This document shows positions 38,677 to 60,083 of a stretch of 63,282 nucleotides of DNA, one piece after another (within the stretch, counting starts at the first letter, position 1; each line of letters starts with the position of its first letter). The notes beneath the pieces were generated by a model. The model did no database searches and was not told the DNA's origin. It saw nothing but the letters and a program-made list of their open reading frames with translations. Made by a program: the position numbers and the translations under genes. Source of the DNA: an uncultured Eubacteriales bacterium. Lineage in GTDB: Bacteria; Bacillota; Clostridia; Oscillospirales; Oscillospiraceae. The stretch is taken from contig URDJ01000013.1 of assembly GCA_900546615.1 (NCBI GenBank), positions 1 through 63,282 of the forward strand, in the 5' to 3' direction.

Positions 38677-39960
38677 TGGTCCACTTCAAAAATCCCCAAA
38701 TGGAAAAGTATTATTTTCACTCCATGACGCTATTTGAACACCCGTTTTCGATAAAACTTGCATAATACTTCTCCTCAAAAGTCTGCGGCGTCTGGTATTT
38801 GAGTGTTTGGTGCGGACGAACTTCATTATAGAATCGAATATATTGCTCAACGCTTTTGAAAAAGCTTTGCTCTGAGGTATACTCTCTGCGGTATGCATCT
38901 TCTTTTTTGAATGTTGCAAAAAAGGTTTCAGCAACTGCGTTGTCATGTGGGCGGCCAGTAGCAGAAAAAGACTGTTTGACTCCATTCTTTTGAAGAAGCA
39001 GCGCAAAAGCAGCAGAGGTGTACTGCTTTCCTCGATCACTATGAAATGTAAGATTTTTCGGCTTGCCGCGTTCCTGATAAGCATTTCGAAATGTGGCAGT
39101 AACCAAGTTGGTACTGGCGTTACGAGATACTCTGTAACCTACGATCCTGCGGGCATAGAGATCCAAAATGATGCAGAGATATACCCAATAGTTGTTGACC
39201 CTAAAGTATGTAATATCGCTGACCCATATCTGGTTTGGACGTTCCGCAGTGAATTCTCTTTCGAGTAAATTGCGTTTTGCGTATTGCTGCCGCTTTTTAT
39301 ACTGCTTTTTTGCATCGGAACGAATACTTCTGAGATCTAATTCCTGCATGATCGCAGAGATTCGTTTGGCGCTGACCTTCATCCCATTTTGCGCTAAAAT
39401 GCTTCTGATCTTCTCGGCACCAAAGCGCTGCTGGCTGTCATCAAAAATCTGCTGTACCTTCAACATCAGCTCCGCCTGCTCTTCTTCCCGTTTACTTCGA
39501 TCTACACGTCGAAATATGTGATTATAGAAAGTGCCCCGGGCAACACCCAGGGCTTCGCACAACTCATGTACACTGAATTGCTGGTTTTCATGGTATATCT
39601 TTTCCAGCACTTCAAGTTTCCTGAGGAGCGGTACTTTGGCAAGAAATCCAGAAAGGCGAATGATCTCCACTTCATGTTCCATCTTCTCAAGCTTTCTTGA
39701 AAGCGTATCAATCTCTTTGGGCGTGTAGGTATGCTGCGGCGTCCGAATAGAACAGAATAGCTTACGCCAATGGTAAATCGTACTCTGTGCAATATGAAAC
39801 TCTTGACTAAGATCCTTGATGGACTCACCTTTTTCGTAGCGTTGAATGACTTTGGTTTTAACCTCCACAGGATATTCTGTTGGCATGATTCCATCCCCTT
39901 TCAAATATTCAGGATAAAACCATGACAGATGATTGTCGAGTAGTTGAGAAAACATGAATG
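38677..39960 (-). mobile_element. IS3-family insertion sequence
   Basis: The left end is placed at TGGTCCACTTC (38677), inferred by alignment with a related terminus at 41355. The right end is not resolved; a poorly matching GGCTCCAG near 39980-39990 is one option. The element carries a single transposase gene and is much more AT-rich than its surroundings. No target duplication could be confirmed. Confidence 0.75.
38717..39886 (-). CDS. IS3-family transposase (fused OrfA-OrfB, DDE)
   Basis: A 389-aa transposase in one continuous frame; most IS3 elements split this into two frames joined by -1 slippage. An N-terminal helix-turn-helix (SIKDLSQEFHIAQSTIYHW), a leucine-rich linker, a second HTH (SVHELCEALGVARGTFYNHI) and the DDE core are visible. 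The catalytic residues are in WVSDITYF, FHSDRGKQY and VAETFFATF, with exactly 35 residues between the second Asp and the Glu. All three are intact, so it may be active. The start is taken at MPTEYPVEV behind AAAGGGG; an upstream in-frame ATG exists at 39955. Confidence 0.93.
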   Translation of the reverse strand: MPTEYPVEVKTKVIQRYEKGESIKDLSQEFHIAQSTIYHWRKLFCSIRTPQHTYTPKEIDTLSRKLEKMEHEVEIIRLSGFLAKVPLLRKLEVLEKIYHENQQFSVHELCEALGVARGTFYNHIFRRVDRSKREEEQAELMLKVQQIFDDSQQRFGAEKIRSILAQNGMKVSAKRISAIMQELDLRSIRSDAKKQYKKRQQYAKRNLLEREFTAERPNQIWVSDITYFRVNNYWVYLCIILDLYARRIVGYRVSRNASTNLVTATFRNAYQERGKPKNLTFHSDRGKQYTSAAFALLLQKNGVKQSFSATGRPHDNAVAETFFATFKKEDAYRREYTSEQSFFKSVEQYIRFYNEVRPHQTLKYQTPQTFEEKYYASFIENGCSNSVME

Positions 39961-54994: not shown

Positions 54995-55027
54995 ACACCG
55001 GCCCGTGCAGCATGCATGGGCCGGTGT
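54995..55027 (+). terminator. Terminator of the second lipoprotein gene
   Basis: ACACCGGCCC (54995-55004) pairs with GGGCCGGTGT (55018-55027), followed by seven T. Confidence 0.9.
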
Positions 55028-55051
55028 TTTTTTGCGGATCTCCAGTTTTCA

Positions 55052-55078
55052 TGCAACATGCGGCCCGGTTTTGGTGTC
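55052..55078 (+). promoter_or_regulatory. Candidate ECF-type promoter
   Basis: TGCAAC (55052-55057) and TGTC (55075-55078), 17 nt between AAC and TGTC, resemble the AAC...CGTC pattern of ECF promoters. They lie 35 bases upstream of the sigma gene, which would allow autoregulation. The match is partial. Confidence 0.35.
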
Positions 55079-55112
55079 TTTAAGGGTGAAGGGCCTTTCG
55101 GGAGGGACGTCA

Positions 55113-55673
55113 ATGGACGACAGGGTGATAATACAGCTGTTCCGTCAGCGGGACGAAGCGGCGATATCTGCCGTACGCGAAAAATACGGGGCATACTGCC
55201 GGGCCGTTGCGCTTGGCATCACCGGCGACGAGCAGGATGCCGAAGAGTGTGTCAGCGAGGCGCTATACCGGCTCTGGGACTCCATCCCGCCCGCCGAGCC
55301 GGAGAGCCTGCGCGCCTTCGCGGGCAGGGTAGTGCGCAATATCTCCATAAACCTGCTGCGCGGCGCCTCACGCCAAAAGCGAGGCGGCGGCGAAACCGTA
55401 CTTGCTCTATGCGAGCTGGCCTCCTGCGCCGACAGTGCCCCCTCGCCCGAGCGCAGGGCCGAGGACGCCGAGATAACCGCCTGCCTCAACCGCTGGCTCG
55501 ACACGCTGCCCCGTCAGCACCGCGTCGCCTTCGTGCGCCGCTACTGGTACCTCGACTCCATCGAAGCCCTCTCCGCGCGCATGGGCTGGTCCAAGCCTAA
55601 AACCACCTCCCTGCTCGCGCGGCTGCGCGCCTCGCTCAGGGAAAAGCTCAACTCGGAGGGTATCGAAATATGA
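55113..55673 (+). CDS. ECF-type RNA polymerase sigma factor
   Basis: A 186-aa two-domain sigma factor. Region 2 contains AVREKYGAYCRAVALG and DAEECVSEALYRLWDS, and region 4 contains LDTLPRQHRVAFVRRYWYL with the helix-turn-helix SIEALSARMGWSKPKTTSLL. The ATG at 55113 has GGGAGGG at 6 nt. The stop overlaps the next gene as ATGA, the standard sigma/anti-sigma arrangement. Confidence 0.9.
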   Translation: MDDRVIIQLFRQRDEAAISAVREKYGAYCRAVALGITGDEQDAEECVSEALYRLWDSIPPAEPESLRAFAGRVVRNISINLLRGASRQKRGGGETVLALCELASCADSAPSPERRAEDAEITACLNRWLDTLPRQHRVAFVRRYWYLDSIEALSARMGWSKPKTTSLLARLRASLREKLNSEGIEI

Positions 55674-56581
55674 ACGAAAACAGGCTCTCAGACTGCCTCG
55701 GCTCCATCGACCCGCGCTTCATTGACGAGGCTGCCGACTGCAAAAAGAAAAACCGCGGGCGCGGCGTACTCTATCTCGCCGCCGCACTCGCAGCCTGCGC
55801 GCTGCTATTTTTCGCAACCTACCACCCCTACGGCGTCTCCGACACGCTGCCCGGAGTTTCCGTCTCGCCCTCTGCCCCGGTCCCGGTCTCCGGCGTATAC
55901 GTCCCGGCCATCGAGCTGCCGGAGCCGGACAGCGGCTTCACCGTGGACATGATAGCCTGCGTGGTATACGACGGCGCGGTATACACCCAGGGCGAGTGGC
56001 TGGGCGACGCCTCGGCCCTCGTCGGCGAATACCTCGGCCACGCGACGGGCAGCATCGACGAGTGGTCGGACGAGTCCGAGTACTACGTCGAGTTCGCGGG
56101 CACCATGTCCGGCGACATCTACTCTGTCACCGGCTACGACCCGGGCTTCCGCATCTGCTGCCTTTATGACGACGGCTCGGTCATGCTGCTTGAGCGGCTC
56201 AACAGCATCAGCCTCGACACCGGCGCAGACCTCTTTGAAACGCGCCTGCACCTCGCCGAGCGCATGGAATCCATCAGCTATCTCACTCATGAGGACTGGA
56301 ACGAGAACGCTGACAGCTTCAGGGACCTCCCACTCTCCGAAGACACCGTCTCCGCTTTCCTCGCCGAGCTCTGCGCCGGGGGCTTTGAGTATGTCTGGGA
56401 GACGGACCGCGACATCTACGACCGCGCCGTGCAGGGGCACCTGTTCTTCTCCATGTCCGACGGCACTACGGTTGAGCTGCGGCTCATTGAGGGCGGCTAT
56501 GTGGGCTATCAGGGTCTGGGCTGGTACTTCGTGAAAATGCCCGGCGAGGTCTTCGACGCCGTACTCGCCGCCTGCCAGTGA
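55670..56581 (+). CDS. Probable membrane anti-sigma factor
   Basis: A 303-aa bitopic protein. A 31-residue cytoplasmic N-terminus with LSDCLGSIDPRFIDEAA (a motif common in ECF-linked membrane proteins of Firmicutes) is followed by one helix (VLYLAAALAACALLFFATY) and an extracytoplasmic domain of about 250 residues with no recognised fold. Coupling to the sigma gene is the main evidence for the anti-sigma role. No other gene of the regulon is evident nearby. Confidence 0.7.
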   Translation: MNENRLSDCLGSIDPRFIDEAADCKKKNRGRGVLYLAAALAACALLFFATYHPYGVSDTLPGVSVSPSAPVPVSGVYVPAIELPEPDSGFTVDMIACVVYDGAVYTQGEWLGDASALVGEYLGHATGSIDEWSDESEYYVEFAGTMSGDIYSVTGYDPGFRICCLYDDGSVMLLERLNSISLDTGADLFETRLHLAERMESISYLTHEDWNENADSFRDLPLSEDTVSAFLAELCAGGFEYVWETDRDIYDRAVQGHLFFSMSDGTTVELRLIEGGYVGYQGLGWYFVKMPGEVFDAVLAACQ

Positions 56582-56601
56582 GCCTGCGGGCACAAAAACA
56601 T

Positions 56602-56630
56602 GGGACGCCTCGCTTCATGCGGGGCGTCCC
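56602..56630. terminator. Bidirectional terminator between convergent units
   Basis: A 12-bp stem (56602-56613 with 56619-56630) and 5-nt loop. The minus strand continues CATGTTTTTG after the RiPP precursor, and the plus strand ATTATTT after the anti-sigma gene. Confidence 0.85.
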
Positions 56631-56646
56631 ATTATTTCGCTTCACT

Positions 56647-57048
56647 TCACCATTTTGGCATCCAGTCGTCCGCGAACAGGCCGCCGTCGTCCGTGCCGTT
56701 GCCGACGCTCGCACACCAGCAGCGGACGGAACTTGTCACGCTGCCGTCCTCGCCCTCGCTGAAAAGCTCGCCCAGGCCGTTGAGCGGGCAGGAGCAGCTG
56801 TGCGCCGCGCCCTCGTTCCCGTCGCCGGTGCCGCCGCTCATGCACATGCAGGCCGCGCCGCCCGCGACCGCGTTCAGCTCATCGTCGTCCAGTTCACACT
56901 CTCCCGCGCCGAAGTCGGCCTGCGTCAGTGTAATGCCATACTCCGCCGCAAGGGCGATGGCCGCCGCCATGGTTTCATCCTTCAGCCGCTCGCCCAGCTC
57001 GGGCTTTGCGCTCAAAAGCTCGTAGAACTCTTTCAGCTTCTCTGTCAT
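56647..57048 (-). CDS. Nif11-like leader RiPP precursor with CxC-rich core
   Basis: A 133-aa precursor. Residues 1-64 are a Nif11-type leader: FYELLSAKPELGERL, then ELDDDELNAVAGG ending in the Gly-Gly cleavage site. The core (65-133) is rich in Gly, Ser and Cys and has three CxC motifs at Cys67/69 (CMC), Cys85/87 (CSC) and Cys110/112 (CWC); its end is Asp/Trp-rich (FADDWMPKW). The start overlaps the radical SAM stop as ATGA, with AAAGGAG 8 nt upstream. The leader family is known; this core is not recognised. Thioether-type crosslinks are predicted from the partner enzyme, not seen. Confidence 0.85.
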   Translation of the reverse strand: MTEKLKEFYELLSAKPELGERLKDETMAAAIALAAEYGITLTQADFGAGECELDDDELNAVAGGAACMCMSGGTGDGNEGAAHSCSCPLNGLGELFSEGEDGSVTSSVRCWCASVGNGTDDGGLFADDWMPKW

Positions 57049-58469
57049 CGCTCATTCTCCTTTATTTGAACTTGGTTATTCAGCTTTGATATCGCGCCCT
57101 CGGCGGCGGCCCTGATCCTCGGCGCCCAGCCGCCCCTGAACAAACTGCAGGCATATGGGTCCGGGCCGAACAGCGCCTCCGGGTCGCTCTCCAGCGCCGA
57201 GGCCCGGCAGCCGCCAGCGCAGATATGGGAGTATTCGCACTCTGCACAGGCCGGATTATGCTCCATATACTCGGACACGCGCGTATCGATAAAGCGCATG
57301 TAGCGCGAGTCGTCGAGGCATTTCGCGAGGCCCAGCTCGGTGATGAGCGGGAACTCATTCTGCAGCTCCATGCCCGAGAGCGCCATGCAGGGCAGTGCCC
57401 GGCCCTCGGCCGAGATATACATGACCTGCCGCGCGTGGCCGCAGATACAGCTCGTCTCCGGCTCGCCGCAGGGGCGCATCAGCGGGATATCGTACTGCCC
57501 CGGCCACCTTGGGCTGGCGGCAAAGAAACCGCCCAGCTGTATCGTCAGCGGCATGCCGTCCTCGTAGTACTGCGGGATATAGTCGAGGTACAGCCCGAAA
57601 AGCTCCTCCATGCCTATGGCCTGCCCGTAGCCGCCCTCCTTCCAGGCGCCCACGTTTCCGACCGGGTTCACCTTCAGGCTCCGGCAGCCCCAGTTTGCCA
57701 GTCGCCGCACGCTCTCGCGCAGGCTGTTCTTGTTGTCACCGAATATGCACATCTCCGCCCCGGTCGGGAAACCCCGCTCCCGGCAGCGCAGGAAGGCGGC
57801 CTCGGCATAGCCCTCCGCCCCCGGCACGCCGCGCAGCCAGTCGTGATAGTCCGGGCCGTCGTAGCTCATGTTGAACTCCGGCCGTATGCCACGCGCCTCA
57901 AGCGCGTCCAACAGCTCATCCGTAACCAGCCGGCCGTTCGAGTAGATCGTCGGGATCATTATTCCCCGCTCCAGCAGCGCGTCCACTATCTCAAGGAAGT
58001 CCCGCCTCACCAGCGGCTCGCCGCCCGTGAGCGTCACGCTCCGCACCCCGCACTCGCCCAGCTCCTGCACTATTCCCATCACGCTCTCGTGGTCGAGCTC
58101 GCCCAGTTTGGCATCCGGCGCGGACATGTAGCAGTGCCGGCAGCGGTAGTTGCACCGGCCCGTCACCGACCAGTGCGCCGTGCGTATGTATCTTGAGGGA
58201 TAGAGACGGTACTCCTGCCCCGGCGCGAGCACCGTACCCGGCTCGCAGCGTTCCACGACGCCGAGCCGCTCGAAACGCAGGGCCTGCTCGCGCGTGACAG
58301 CTGGGATGATGCCCATATCAAGATCCACCCGCCCGTTGCAAAGCCTGAGCGCATCCATCTCATCCCGCCTCAGGAACTTAGGCGAGAGCGCGCGCCTGTC
58401 CACCAGGGCGTAGGGCAGCTTTTTCCAACCGCGCAGCTCGAAGCGCTCCTTCAGCCTCATATACAGCAA
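57045..58469 (-). CDS. Radical SAM/SPASM RiPP maturase
   Basis: A 474-aa enzyme from the TTG at 58469 (AAGGAG 9 nt upstream; ATG 58460 is a close alternative). Residues about 10-80 resemble a PqqD-like leader-recognition domain (EMDALRLCNGRVDLD, EQALRFERLGVVE). The radical SAM cluster is CNYRCRHC (Cys106, 110, 113), then LTGGEPLVRRDF. The SPASM region has cysteines in MRPCGEPETSCICGH, LPCMALSG, PACAECEYSHICAGGC and YACSLFRGG, enough for two auxiliary Fe-S clusters. Coupling to the Nif11 precursor marks it as a RiPP-modifying enzyme; the linkage chemistry is unknown. Confidence 0.88.
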   Translation of the reverse strand: MLYMRLKERFELRGWKKLPYALVDRRALSPKFLRRDEMDALRLCNGRVDLDMGIIPAVTREQALRFERLGVVERCEPGTVLAPGQEYRLYPSRYIRTAHWSVTGRCNYRCRHCYMSAPDAKLGELDHESVMGIVQELGECGVRSVTLTGGEPLVRRDFLEIVDALLERGIMIPTIYSNGRLVTDELLDALEARGIRPEFNMSYDGPDYHDWLRGVPGAEGYAEAAFLRCRERGFPTGAEMCIFGDNKNSLRESVRRLANWGCRSLKVNPVGNVGAWKEGGYGQAIGMEELFGLYLDYIPQYYEDGMPLTIQLGGFFAASPRWPGQYDIPLMRPCGEPETSCICGHARQVMYISAEGRALPCMALSGMELQNEFPLITELGLAKCLDDSRYMRFIDTRVSEYMEHNPACAECEYSHICAGGCRASALESDPEALFGPDPYACSLFRGGWAPRIRAAAEGAISKLNNQVQIKENER

Positions 58470-58489
58470 TCCGCACCACTCCTTCTTTG

Positions 58490-58518
58490 AGCGTAGCACC
58501 GTTTCCGGCTATTGTCAA
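58490..58518 (-). promoter_or_regulatory. Promoter of the RiPP locus
   Basis: TTGACA (58513-58518) and TACGCT (58490-58495) with 17 bp between. The transcription start would fall next to the AAGGAG ribosome site, leaving a very short leader. Confidence 0.7.
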
Positions 58519-58603: not shown

Positions 58604-59434
58604 TCATATGCTTTGCTGCGTCCTTTTCTTCCTTCTGAGCGTGAGCGCCGTCGTGAGCGGGCGCTTTTCGCTCTTGCACTCAAAGAAGGCCGCGACCGAG
58701 AACACCACAGCGCCCACGAAGTTCACGAACAGGTCCTCCATCGTGTCGTACAGACCTATGTCCAGAAAGCCGCCGAGGCCCAGCGGCTGCTCGCCCGAAC
58801 CCGTGACCAGTATCACGTCCTCAATGTCTTTCACCGTGATGGAGATATTACTGTTCGTCGGGTCGAGGCTCACTGAGCTTATCTGGCTCACGATGGTGTC
58901 CTTCTGCATGTCGAGCAGGAACAGACGGTCGGCGGAGAACTCTATGAACTCCCAGAGCACGCCGATGGTCATGGAAAAGCAGAAGGCCGTCAGCGCAAGG
59001 TAGCCCGGCGAGAGCTGCACCTTCACGCTGTCGCTGCGGTTGAGCAGGTCCACCAGCGAAAAGCCCACCGCCGCGCACAAAAAGCCCGAGGAGGTGTGCA
59101 GGATGGTGTCCCAGTTAGAGTATTTGATGAAGTACGACTGTAACTCGCCAAGTATCTCCGCCGCAAACACGAAGACGAAAATGATGACCTCGAGCGCGGT
59201 CGGGATGTCTATGTTCAGCTTGTTCTCGACGAGCTGGGGCAGCGTATAGATGATCAGCACCAGCACGCAGACGAAGGCGCTCTCAATGTCGCCGCGCAGT
59301 ATGCAGCGGATGAGGATGAGTATGACGATGAACCGCAGGACGACATAGGTCCAGAACGCCGCCGGTTCCTCCTTCCTCTTGCGGAGCAGGGCCTGACGCT
59401 TCGATTCCCTGCCCTCAGAGAGCTTTCTCCTCAT
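58604..59434 (-). CDS. Membrane protein resembling YjdF/DUF2238
   Basis: A 276-aa polytopic protein with about six to seven helices. The stretch NWDTILHTSSGFLCAAVGF followed by a conserved WEFIEFSAD helix is typical of DUF2238/YjdF membrane proteins. The N-terminus is basic and the C-terminus ends in arginine/lysine. Function is unknown. It overlaps the DedA-type gene by 20 nt, so they form a pair; no link to the RiPP genes downstream is demonstrated. Confidence 0.6.
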   Translation of the reverse strand: MRRKLSEGRESKRQALLRKRKEEPAAFWTYVVLRFIVILILIRCILRGDIESAFVCVLVLIIYTLPQLVENKLNIDIPTALEVIIFVFVFAAEILGELQSYFIKYSNWDTILHTSSGFLCAAVGFSLVDLLNRSDSVKVQLSPGYLALTAFCFSMTIGVLWEFIEFSADRLFLLDMQKDTIVSQISSVSLDPTNSNISITVKDIEDVILVTGSGEQPLGLGGFLDIGLYDTMEDLFVNFVGAVVFSVAAFFECKSEKRPLTTALTLRRKKRTQQSI

Positions 59435-60083
59435 TTTGTTTCCCCTTTCTCTTTTTCCTGAGCCTCAGCACAAGCCAGGCCGCCGCTATACAGAGCACAT
59501 CGACGCCAAAGCAGATCATGACCGGCCCGCTCGTCAGGTCGAGATCGTTGCCCAACACCGTGTAGAGCACCATCGTCGGCAGTATGCCGATGAAACTGCT
59601 GGCGAGATACTGCCAGTAATTCATCCTCAGCGCGCCGAAGAACAGACCGAGGATGTCGTTTGAAAGATTCGTCACGCGCAGGACCAGCGAGACGAGGAAA
59701 AGGTTGTCCCGGTTGTCCTCGTACACCTCGCCTATGCGCCTGTATTTTTTCAGAAGCCTCTGCGCCGCCTCTCCGCCCGAGGCGCGGCCCGTGAAATACG
59801 GCACGCTGATGCAGATGACCGAGCCGACCGCGTTCACCATGAGCGACAGCGGCGGCTCAAACACTATGCCCACCGCCGTCGCCACGACGCCGTAGAGCAC
59901 GAACACCGTCTGGCTCTTGACCGCATAGGCCAAAAGCGCCACCACCACCGCCAGCGCCGTGTTCTTCGGCGCGTAGCTCGTCAGCATCTCGACCGTCACG
60001 CCGTCGCCCGTCAGCACCAGCACCGCCGCCCCGACCGCAAGACAGAGCATTATTATGATTGGAACGTACCGTCTGAACTTCAT
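59415..60083 (-). CDS. TVP38/TMEM64-family (DedA-like) membrane protein
   Basis: A 222-aa SNARE-associated Golgi-type protein of the DedA superfamily. VLYGVVATAVGIVFEPPLSL and the re-entrant segment with GRASGGEAAQRLLKKYRRIG, then LVSLVLRVTNLSNDILGLFFGALRM, are family features. DedA proteins influence membrane lipid flipping and envelope stress. It has its own promoter upstream. Confidence 0.85.
   Translation of the reverse strand: MKFRRYVPIIIMLCLAVGAAVLVLTGDGVTVEMLTSYAPKNTALAVVVALLAYAVKSQTVFVLYGVVATAVGIVFEPPLSLMVNAVGSVICISVPYFTGRASGGEAAQRLLKKYRRIGEVYEDNRDNLFLVSLVLRVTNLSNDILGLFFGALRMNYWQYLASSFIGILPTMVLYTVLGNDLDLTSGPVMICFGVDVLCIAAAWLVLRLRKKRKGKQNEEKAL

Follow-up and report, generated by a model that had tools for sequence, protein, structure and literature searches.

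What does a radical SAM enzyme make of a small peptide that carries three CxC motifs behind a Nif11-type leader? The question is raised by a minus-strand locus of two genes in a contig of an uncultured, gut-type Eubacteriales bacterium (URDJ01000013.1; the whole stretch analysed, 63,282 nucleotides, is called the window here), in which an open reading frame (ORF) for a radical SAM/SPASM enzyme (58499-57045) adjoins one for a precursor peptide (57048-56647). The locus is laid out as follows.

57045..58469, minus strand: radical SAM/SPASM maturase, about 474 residues (likely extent)
58200..58469, minus strand: N-terminal RRE-like (PqqD-type) domain, presumed to bind the leader
58131..58154, minus strand: CxxxCxxC, radical SAM 4Fe-4S site
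57147..57443, minus strand: SPASM domain with seven cysteines, two auxiliary clusters predicted
56647..57048, minus strand: precursor peptide, 133 residues
56857..57048, minus strand: Nif11-type leader, residues 1-64, ending AVAGG
56824..56850, minus strand: module 1, CMCMSGGTG
56770..56796, minus strand: module 2, CSCPLNGLG
56695..56721, minus strand: module 3, CWCASVGNG
56600..56632: stem-loop of 14 pairs, terminator-like, past the end of the precursor gene (listed by the scan on the plus strand only; the T-run of the minus strand was seen by eye)

The enzyme gene ends and the precursor gene begins within a single ATGA at 57048-57045. An earlier note on this DNA called the genes fused; the overlap is real, and it joins two separate genes. 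The same note extended the enzyme to 58518, which is too far out: homologues begin with MLYxRLK or MxYxLK, about 10 residues downstream of the listed ORF start, matching a TTG at 58469. An AAGGAG lies 9 nt ahead of this TTG on inspection by eye, and together with the homologue starts it gives an enzyme of about 474 residues. On these sequence features TTG 58469 is the likely start codon, and the listed ORF extends to a GTG at 58499. The stem-loop is notable for its stem length alone, because the scan returned 3 sites vs 2.7 expected from shuffles.

Elsewhere in the window, an ECF sigma factor gene and an unassigned gene for a 303-residue protein (55005-56581, plus strand) are convergent with the precursor gene. 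Upstream of the enzyme gene and on its strand (58604-60083, minus) are a weakly DUF2238-like membrane gene, under the cut-off, and a VTT-domain gene, and an integrase-core (rve) transposase-like gene lies at 38717-39955 (minus). For comparison with relatives we used 80 homologous loci, the best of 190 stretches in GTDB-type genomes that hold a relative of the enzyme; 13 of them have an ECF sigma cluster no more than 7 kb from the enzyme.

The enzyme matches PF04055 with 78.8 bits, and its CxxxCxxC (C116-C120-C123), already recognised in the earlier note, is present in all 81 rows of the family alignment. What that note had seen as an extended cysteine C-terminus is a canonical SPASM pattern, C353-x12-G-x4-C371 ... 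C418-x2-C421-x5-C427-x3-C431 ... C451, with a Pfam SPASM score of 19.8 bits, just below the cut-off of 21.5. In the 79 rows that remain when two truncated ones are left out, C353, C371, C418, C427, C431 and C451 are aligned in every row and C421 in 78; a regular expression with rigid spacing for all seven matches 71 of the 81. The proposed PqqD-like N-terminus survives as a weak match to RRE-type folds and finds no support in sequence, and the VIA-align rows for this domain do not single out RREs. By fold, the best Foldseek match of the enzyme is SkfB (5.3e-15), with SuiB, PqqE, anSME, ChlB and CteB also found, and SkfB is again the best sequence match among solved chains (1.5e-18).

The statement that the system matches no family holds for curated models. 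None of the best 25 of the 74 NCBIfam models that matched at E <= 0.1 comes near its cut-off, be it the sactisynthases StsB (71 vs 625 bits) and AlbA (43.7 vs 850), the ranthipeptide enzyme PapB (NF047865, 47.4 vs 340) or TIGR04103, by name the nif11-class peptide radical SAM maturase 3 and thus a Nif11-linked maturase as here (77.2 vs 725). Outside curated models the enzyme does have close relatives: of the 7998 candidates scored in a protein search, 1086 passed E <= 0.001, and identity is 60-98% among the 120 relatives listed. Plasmid and phage records held no match to the enzyme at E <= 1e-60. In 6 of the 80 loci (L008, L011, L041, L044, L051 and L080) a further radical SAM gene of this kind is nearby, all six falling in one cluster.

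The Nif11 assignment of the leader was borne out by TIGR03798 (35.5 bits, cut-off 32.3) and by Pfam Nif11 (24.2 bits, cut-off 23.8), and the leader does end in AVAGG; among 30 aligned precursors, 26 match TIGR03798 at E <= 0.01. CMC, CSC and CWC are all present in the 69-residue core, as reported. The repeat itself is longer than the earlier note had it, which took CxC as the motif and overlooked a paired GxG: all three modules of the window read C-x-C-x3-G-x-G, numbered C1 to G9 below. Among 200,000 shuffled versions of the window core, three such units never arose vs 681 versions with three CxC, and 'three CxC' was on this ground rejected as the unit. Trypsin would be expected to part module 3 (CWCASVGNGTDDGGLFADDWMPK) from modules 1 and 2.

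The same grammar runs through the relatives. Motif-selected ORFs number 110 in 50 of the 80 loci, all on the strand of the enzyme, and 96 have exactly three strict modules; this count comes from selection by the motif itself, and one member, L028:10521, lacks a leader and is probably spurious. A second selection, by a leader regular expression and then by at least two CxC, was blind to glycine. It gave 153 ORFs in 60 loci, of which 99 in 44 loci passed the CxC step, and in their 289 modules G7 is present in 284, G9 in 279 and both in 277, with no residue exceeding 49% at positions 4, 5, 6 or 8. In a wider set, selection by leader gave 266 distinct cores; loci supplied 159 and protein searches 107, the latter biased because most were retrieved by a profile built from such cores. 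At least one module occurs in 210 of the 266, and three in 200 of the 210. CxC and GxG are separated by three residues in 614 of 620 modules, by four in 5 and by two in 1, the GxG shifting as a unit. A profile built from 30 precursors finds 435 of 7993 scored proteins at E <= 0.001.

Do enzyme and precursor belong together? Module-bearing loci occur in Bacillota, Actinomycetota, Synergistota and, with Bullifex porci (L070), Spirochaetota. No motif ORF was found in the stretch searched at 30 of the 80 loci, several of which end at contig ends; the genomes of L007, L010, L012 and L020 do have a three-module precursor, which for L012 is some 12 kb off and for the others on a different contig. Whole genomes were searched for 18 of those behind the 80 loci, chosen by us and including five without a nearby motif ORF as well as L073, which has a variant core. 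All 18 match the precursor profile, and 16 have a precursor with at least three strict modules, the other two (G007 and G016) having a variant core.

Two whole classes served as background. In that of the nearest relative of the window, G004 (391 genomes), the enzyme is present at E <= 1e-100 in two, G004 itself and the distant G131, and a precursor match covering the core occurs in G004 alone and in 0 of the 389 genomes without the enzyme. Eight of the latter give 13 hits to the leader part, none beyond profile position 84, and modules are absent from the 9 hits inspected. G131 has the enzyme and an exporter, and the genome search found no precursor in it. In the class of the Synergistaceae relative G017 (180 genomes) the enzyme is present in 17; the precursor match reaches profile position 100 or beyond in 12 of these and is shorter, on the leader side, in 5. 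Among the 163 without the enzyme, 15 match the precursor profile and one, G488, matches to the core, with an ORF of three strict modules that ends 281 bases before a contig end, so that the assembly may just not include the enzyme gene. The earlier note had set a refuting pattern, enzyme homologues always found apart from Nif11 precursors; what is seen instead is strong co-occurrence, in loci and in genomes alike. The two genes almost certainly encode a maturase and its precursor.

Several cores depart from the triple module. That of L073 has a single cysteine with GxG, and those of the Synergistota loci L064, L068 and L074 have two cysteines and end in CDxVTW or CDxVTF. A leader-like ORF that adjoins the enzyme in L054 (6737-7198) has a collagen-like Gly-x-x core. 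L106 (2599-3671) and L107 (1961-3014) have tandem Nif11-type peptides beside a sister radical SAM enzyme (E ~1e-114 to 1e-117); five of the six neighbouring cores are free of cysteine and one has a single one. These sister loci probably perform a different chemistry, and their cores imply that the wider enzyme family is not bound to thioethers. On a tree of 74 of the 81 rows (six tblastn ranges with a stop near one end and one short row were dropped), loci with and without CxC cores are scattered, with 20 changes and 42 of 500 shuffles of the CxC label as low; the scatter arises partly because the class 'none' also takes in loci on truncated contigs and loci with the precursor in trans.

Conservation of the core differs among the loci. 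When the window is compared with L001, the enzyme has a dN/dS of 0.17, the leader one of 0.15 and the core one of 0.63, the last from 69 codons with few changes. Six related loci in Clostridia, three of them from named ruminant samples, show a core identity of 88-96% vs 51-77% for the leader, the opposite of the usual RiPP pattern. These are L009:7603-7953, L011:7590-7937, L014:7592-7957, L100:4655-5005, L101:14539-14886 and L102:5563-5928; in the last three the enzyme is not adjacent to the precursor. Their core, DVSCACxxGGGGTK...RCVCGFAGYGYD, has dN/dS of 0.035-0.211 over 15 pairs. Such conservation suggests a fixed target there, in contrast to L023 (9423-13307), where twelve tandem precursors differ in their loops. 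The leaders of the latter are shortened (MSEEEKKEVLxQEKxL...DAVAGG type), apparently lacking most of the Nif11 domain.

An exporter is commonly encoded in the genomes that hold the enzyme. NHLP-type transporters over the cut-off are found among locus neighbours (TIGR03797, 724 vs 709 bits; TIGR03796, 865 vs 853), and the ABC cluster containing the TIGR03797 transporter is present at 36 of the 80 loci. All 18 enzyme genomes have a TIGR03796 exporter at E <= 1e-100, 17 of them over the cut-off, compared with 20 over the cut-off among the 391 genomes of the G004 class, two being the enzyme genomes; the comparison is rough, because the 18 span several classes and the background is one. No exporter was found among the 20 ORFs scanned in the window, which include all six of at least 700 residues, and in G004 TIGR03796 is on another contig (935.6 bits). 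Judged from these relatives, the window peptide is probably exported.

Which chemistry would such a grammar serve? Glycine is achiral and lacks a beta-carbon. If the conserved glycines are modified, only alpha-carbon chemistry fits. In the scheme that we propose, enzyme and precursor would be co-translated through the ATGA overlap and the Nif11 leader would dock on the enzyme, probably at the N-terminal RRE-like domain. The radical SAM site would take the alpha-hydrogen from a conserved glycine, and oxidation by way of the auxiliary clusters would allow the matching cysteine thiol to add, giving an S-C(alpha) thioether. We infer that positions 1 and 9 and positions 3 and 7 share one hairpin register. 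In C1-x-C3-x-x-x-G7-x-G9 a C3-G7 bridge would be nested within C1-G9, the module forming a beta-hairpin stapled twice. The three modules would hold six bonds, and the loss of 12 H would take the core from 6961.826 to 6949.732 Da; the whole precursor, calculated at 13,778.13 Da, would lose up to 12.09 Da. An NHLP-type peptidase/ABC exporter, presumably encoded elsewhere in the genome, would cut after Gly-Gly and release a product with three rigid loops and at most 69 residues. That the mature, exported peptide carries both nested Cys-to-Gly alpha-carbon thioethers in each module strikes us as an evenly balanced proposition. Slightly less assured, and put forward tentatively, is the fuller reading: these peptides would be a new class of RiPPs with members in Bacillota, Actinomycetota, Synergistota and Spirochaetota, and a single radical SAM enzyme would follow the strict repeat grammar, tie each CxC to its GxG by these two thioethers and so form a row of three similar hairpins, each stapled twice, with variable loops.

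The most serious competitor of the nested scheme, though an unlikely one, keeps the same gene pair and sets the thioethers elsewhere, on residues at positions 4-6 or 8 or in the linkers, or pairs C1 with G7 and C3 with G9, the GxG serving mainly as a turn. The conserved glycines could indeed serve turns while the acceptors lie elsewhere, and the acceptors of known sactipeptides, as far as the account in PMC8326336 extends, are of many residue types; streptosactin, in the material drawn from PMC8172795, is unnested. Two glycine positions conserved at 97-98% amid variable neighbours nevertheless seem beyond the needs of a turn, and the loop-length variants (6 of 620 modules), including all five with four spacer residues, preserve CxC and GxG as units. 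Ranthipeptide-type acceptors at beta- or gamma-carbons would require other partners than those conserved here, which are glycines and have no beta-carbon, and the acceptors may lie on such other residues. Losses in natural variants are mixed and do not resolve how the residues pair: three cores (L032, L044 and L046) have neither C1 nor G9, L027, L030 and L073 have dropped C1 but retain G9, as the competing reading would allow, and L030, L038, L044, L061 and P0170 retain C1 without G9. A Fisher test of C1 against G9 was set aside, being inflated by unrelated zinc-ribbon-like ORFs.

Bufferins are Cys-rich. Such copper-chelating, cysteine-containing RiPPs (PMC12452194, in the part consulted) lend some colour to a less probable reading, in which the enzyme makes a change other than a thioether (a C-C bond, an oxidation or the epimerisation of a residue other than glycine) and the six free cysteines form disulphides or bind metal, perhaps as a metal-buffering peptide. 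The mostly Cys-free Nif11-type cores beside the sister enzymes of L106 and L107 also favour it. It leaves the conservation of glycine unexplained, glycine cannot be epimerised, and in the module-bearing cores 1240 of 1307 cysteines are locked in the CxC-GxG grammar. That the precursor is not the substrate of the adjacent enzyme, or is a chance ORF, is very improbable: long-flank loci such as L007, L010, L012 and L020 lack a precursor in the stretch searched, but their genomes hold one, strand bias, co-occurrence and the purifying selection on the L009-group cores all count against it, and a chance ORF is rejected by the motif-ORF counts, the glycine conservation and the selection on the core.

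The preferred reading, that of nested Cys-to-Gly thioethers, has partial precedents. In the available text of PMC8172795, streptosactin (GggA/GggB) has a Cys31-Gly34 alpha-thioether made by one enzyme, as predicted here; unlike the window peptide it is a streptococcal 14-mer with unnested rings and one Ser acceptor. Ruminococcin C (RumMC1/RumMC2), from the gut bacterium Ruminococcus gnavus, is according to the same excerpts made by a radical SAM maturase from a CxC donor pair, with nested alpha-thioethers (in RumC2, Cys22-Asn35 and Cys24-Glu31) of the kind predicted here. It differs in having non-Gly acceptors, larger rings and only two hairpins, which derive from CxC and CxxxC; the likeness is one of architecture. 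SkfB, the SKF maturase, also combines an RRE, a radical SAM domain and an auxiliary cluster (PMC6231123, as excerpted), but it has a Twitch domain with one such cluster, where the window enzyme has the full seven-Cys SPASM pattern. The N11P family (TIGR03798) with TIGR03794/03796/03797 export shares the leader, the GG site and the exporter of related genomes; in PMC2887384 it is paired with TOMM or LanM enzymes, and a count of the words 'radical SAM' in that text gives 0. The earlier note raised the possibility of a new class of product; the sequence favours a new variant of the sactipeptide sort over a chemistry that is entirely new.

The Nif11 leader, the radical SAM/SPASM maturase and NHLP export are each of a known kind. 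In titles and abstract openings of open-licence papers, reached by topic searches that did not query the grammar itself, neither the repeat grammar C-x-C-x3-G-x-G nor the predicted double Cys-Gly staples appeared. Haft and Basu (2011) or the radical SAM RiPP atlas of Clark and Seyedsayamdost (JACS, 2022) may list the family.

Our guess is that the product is a narrow antibacterial or signalling peptide. The peptide family is large and unstudied, and comes mostly from gut-sample genomes; relatives also occur in strain-titled, non-MAG records (Collinsella tanakaei An791, Bullifex porci NM-380-WT-3C1 and Bacterium D16-51). Its grammar is strict and testable, and a single enzyme would work on six positions in modules whose loop residues differ. 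If the chemistry is as predicted, the family would offer a genetically encoded route to rigid, multi-loop peptides and a natural scaffold for displayed loops.
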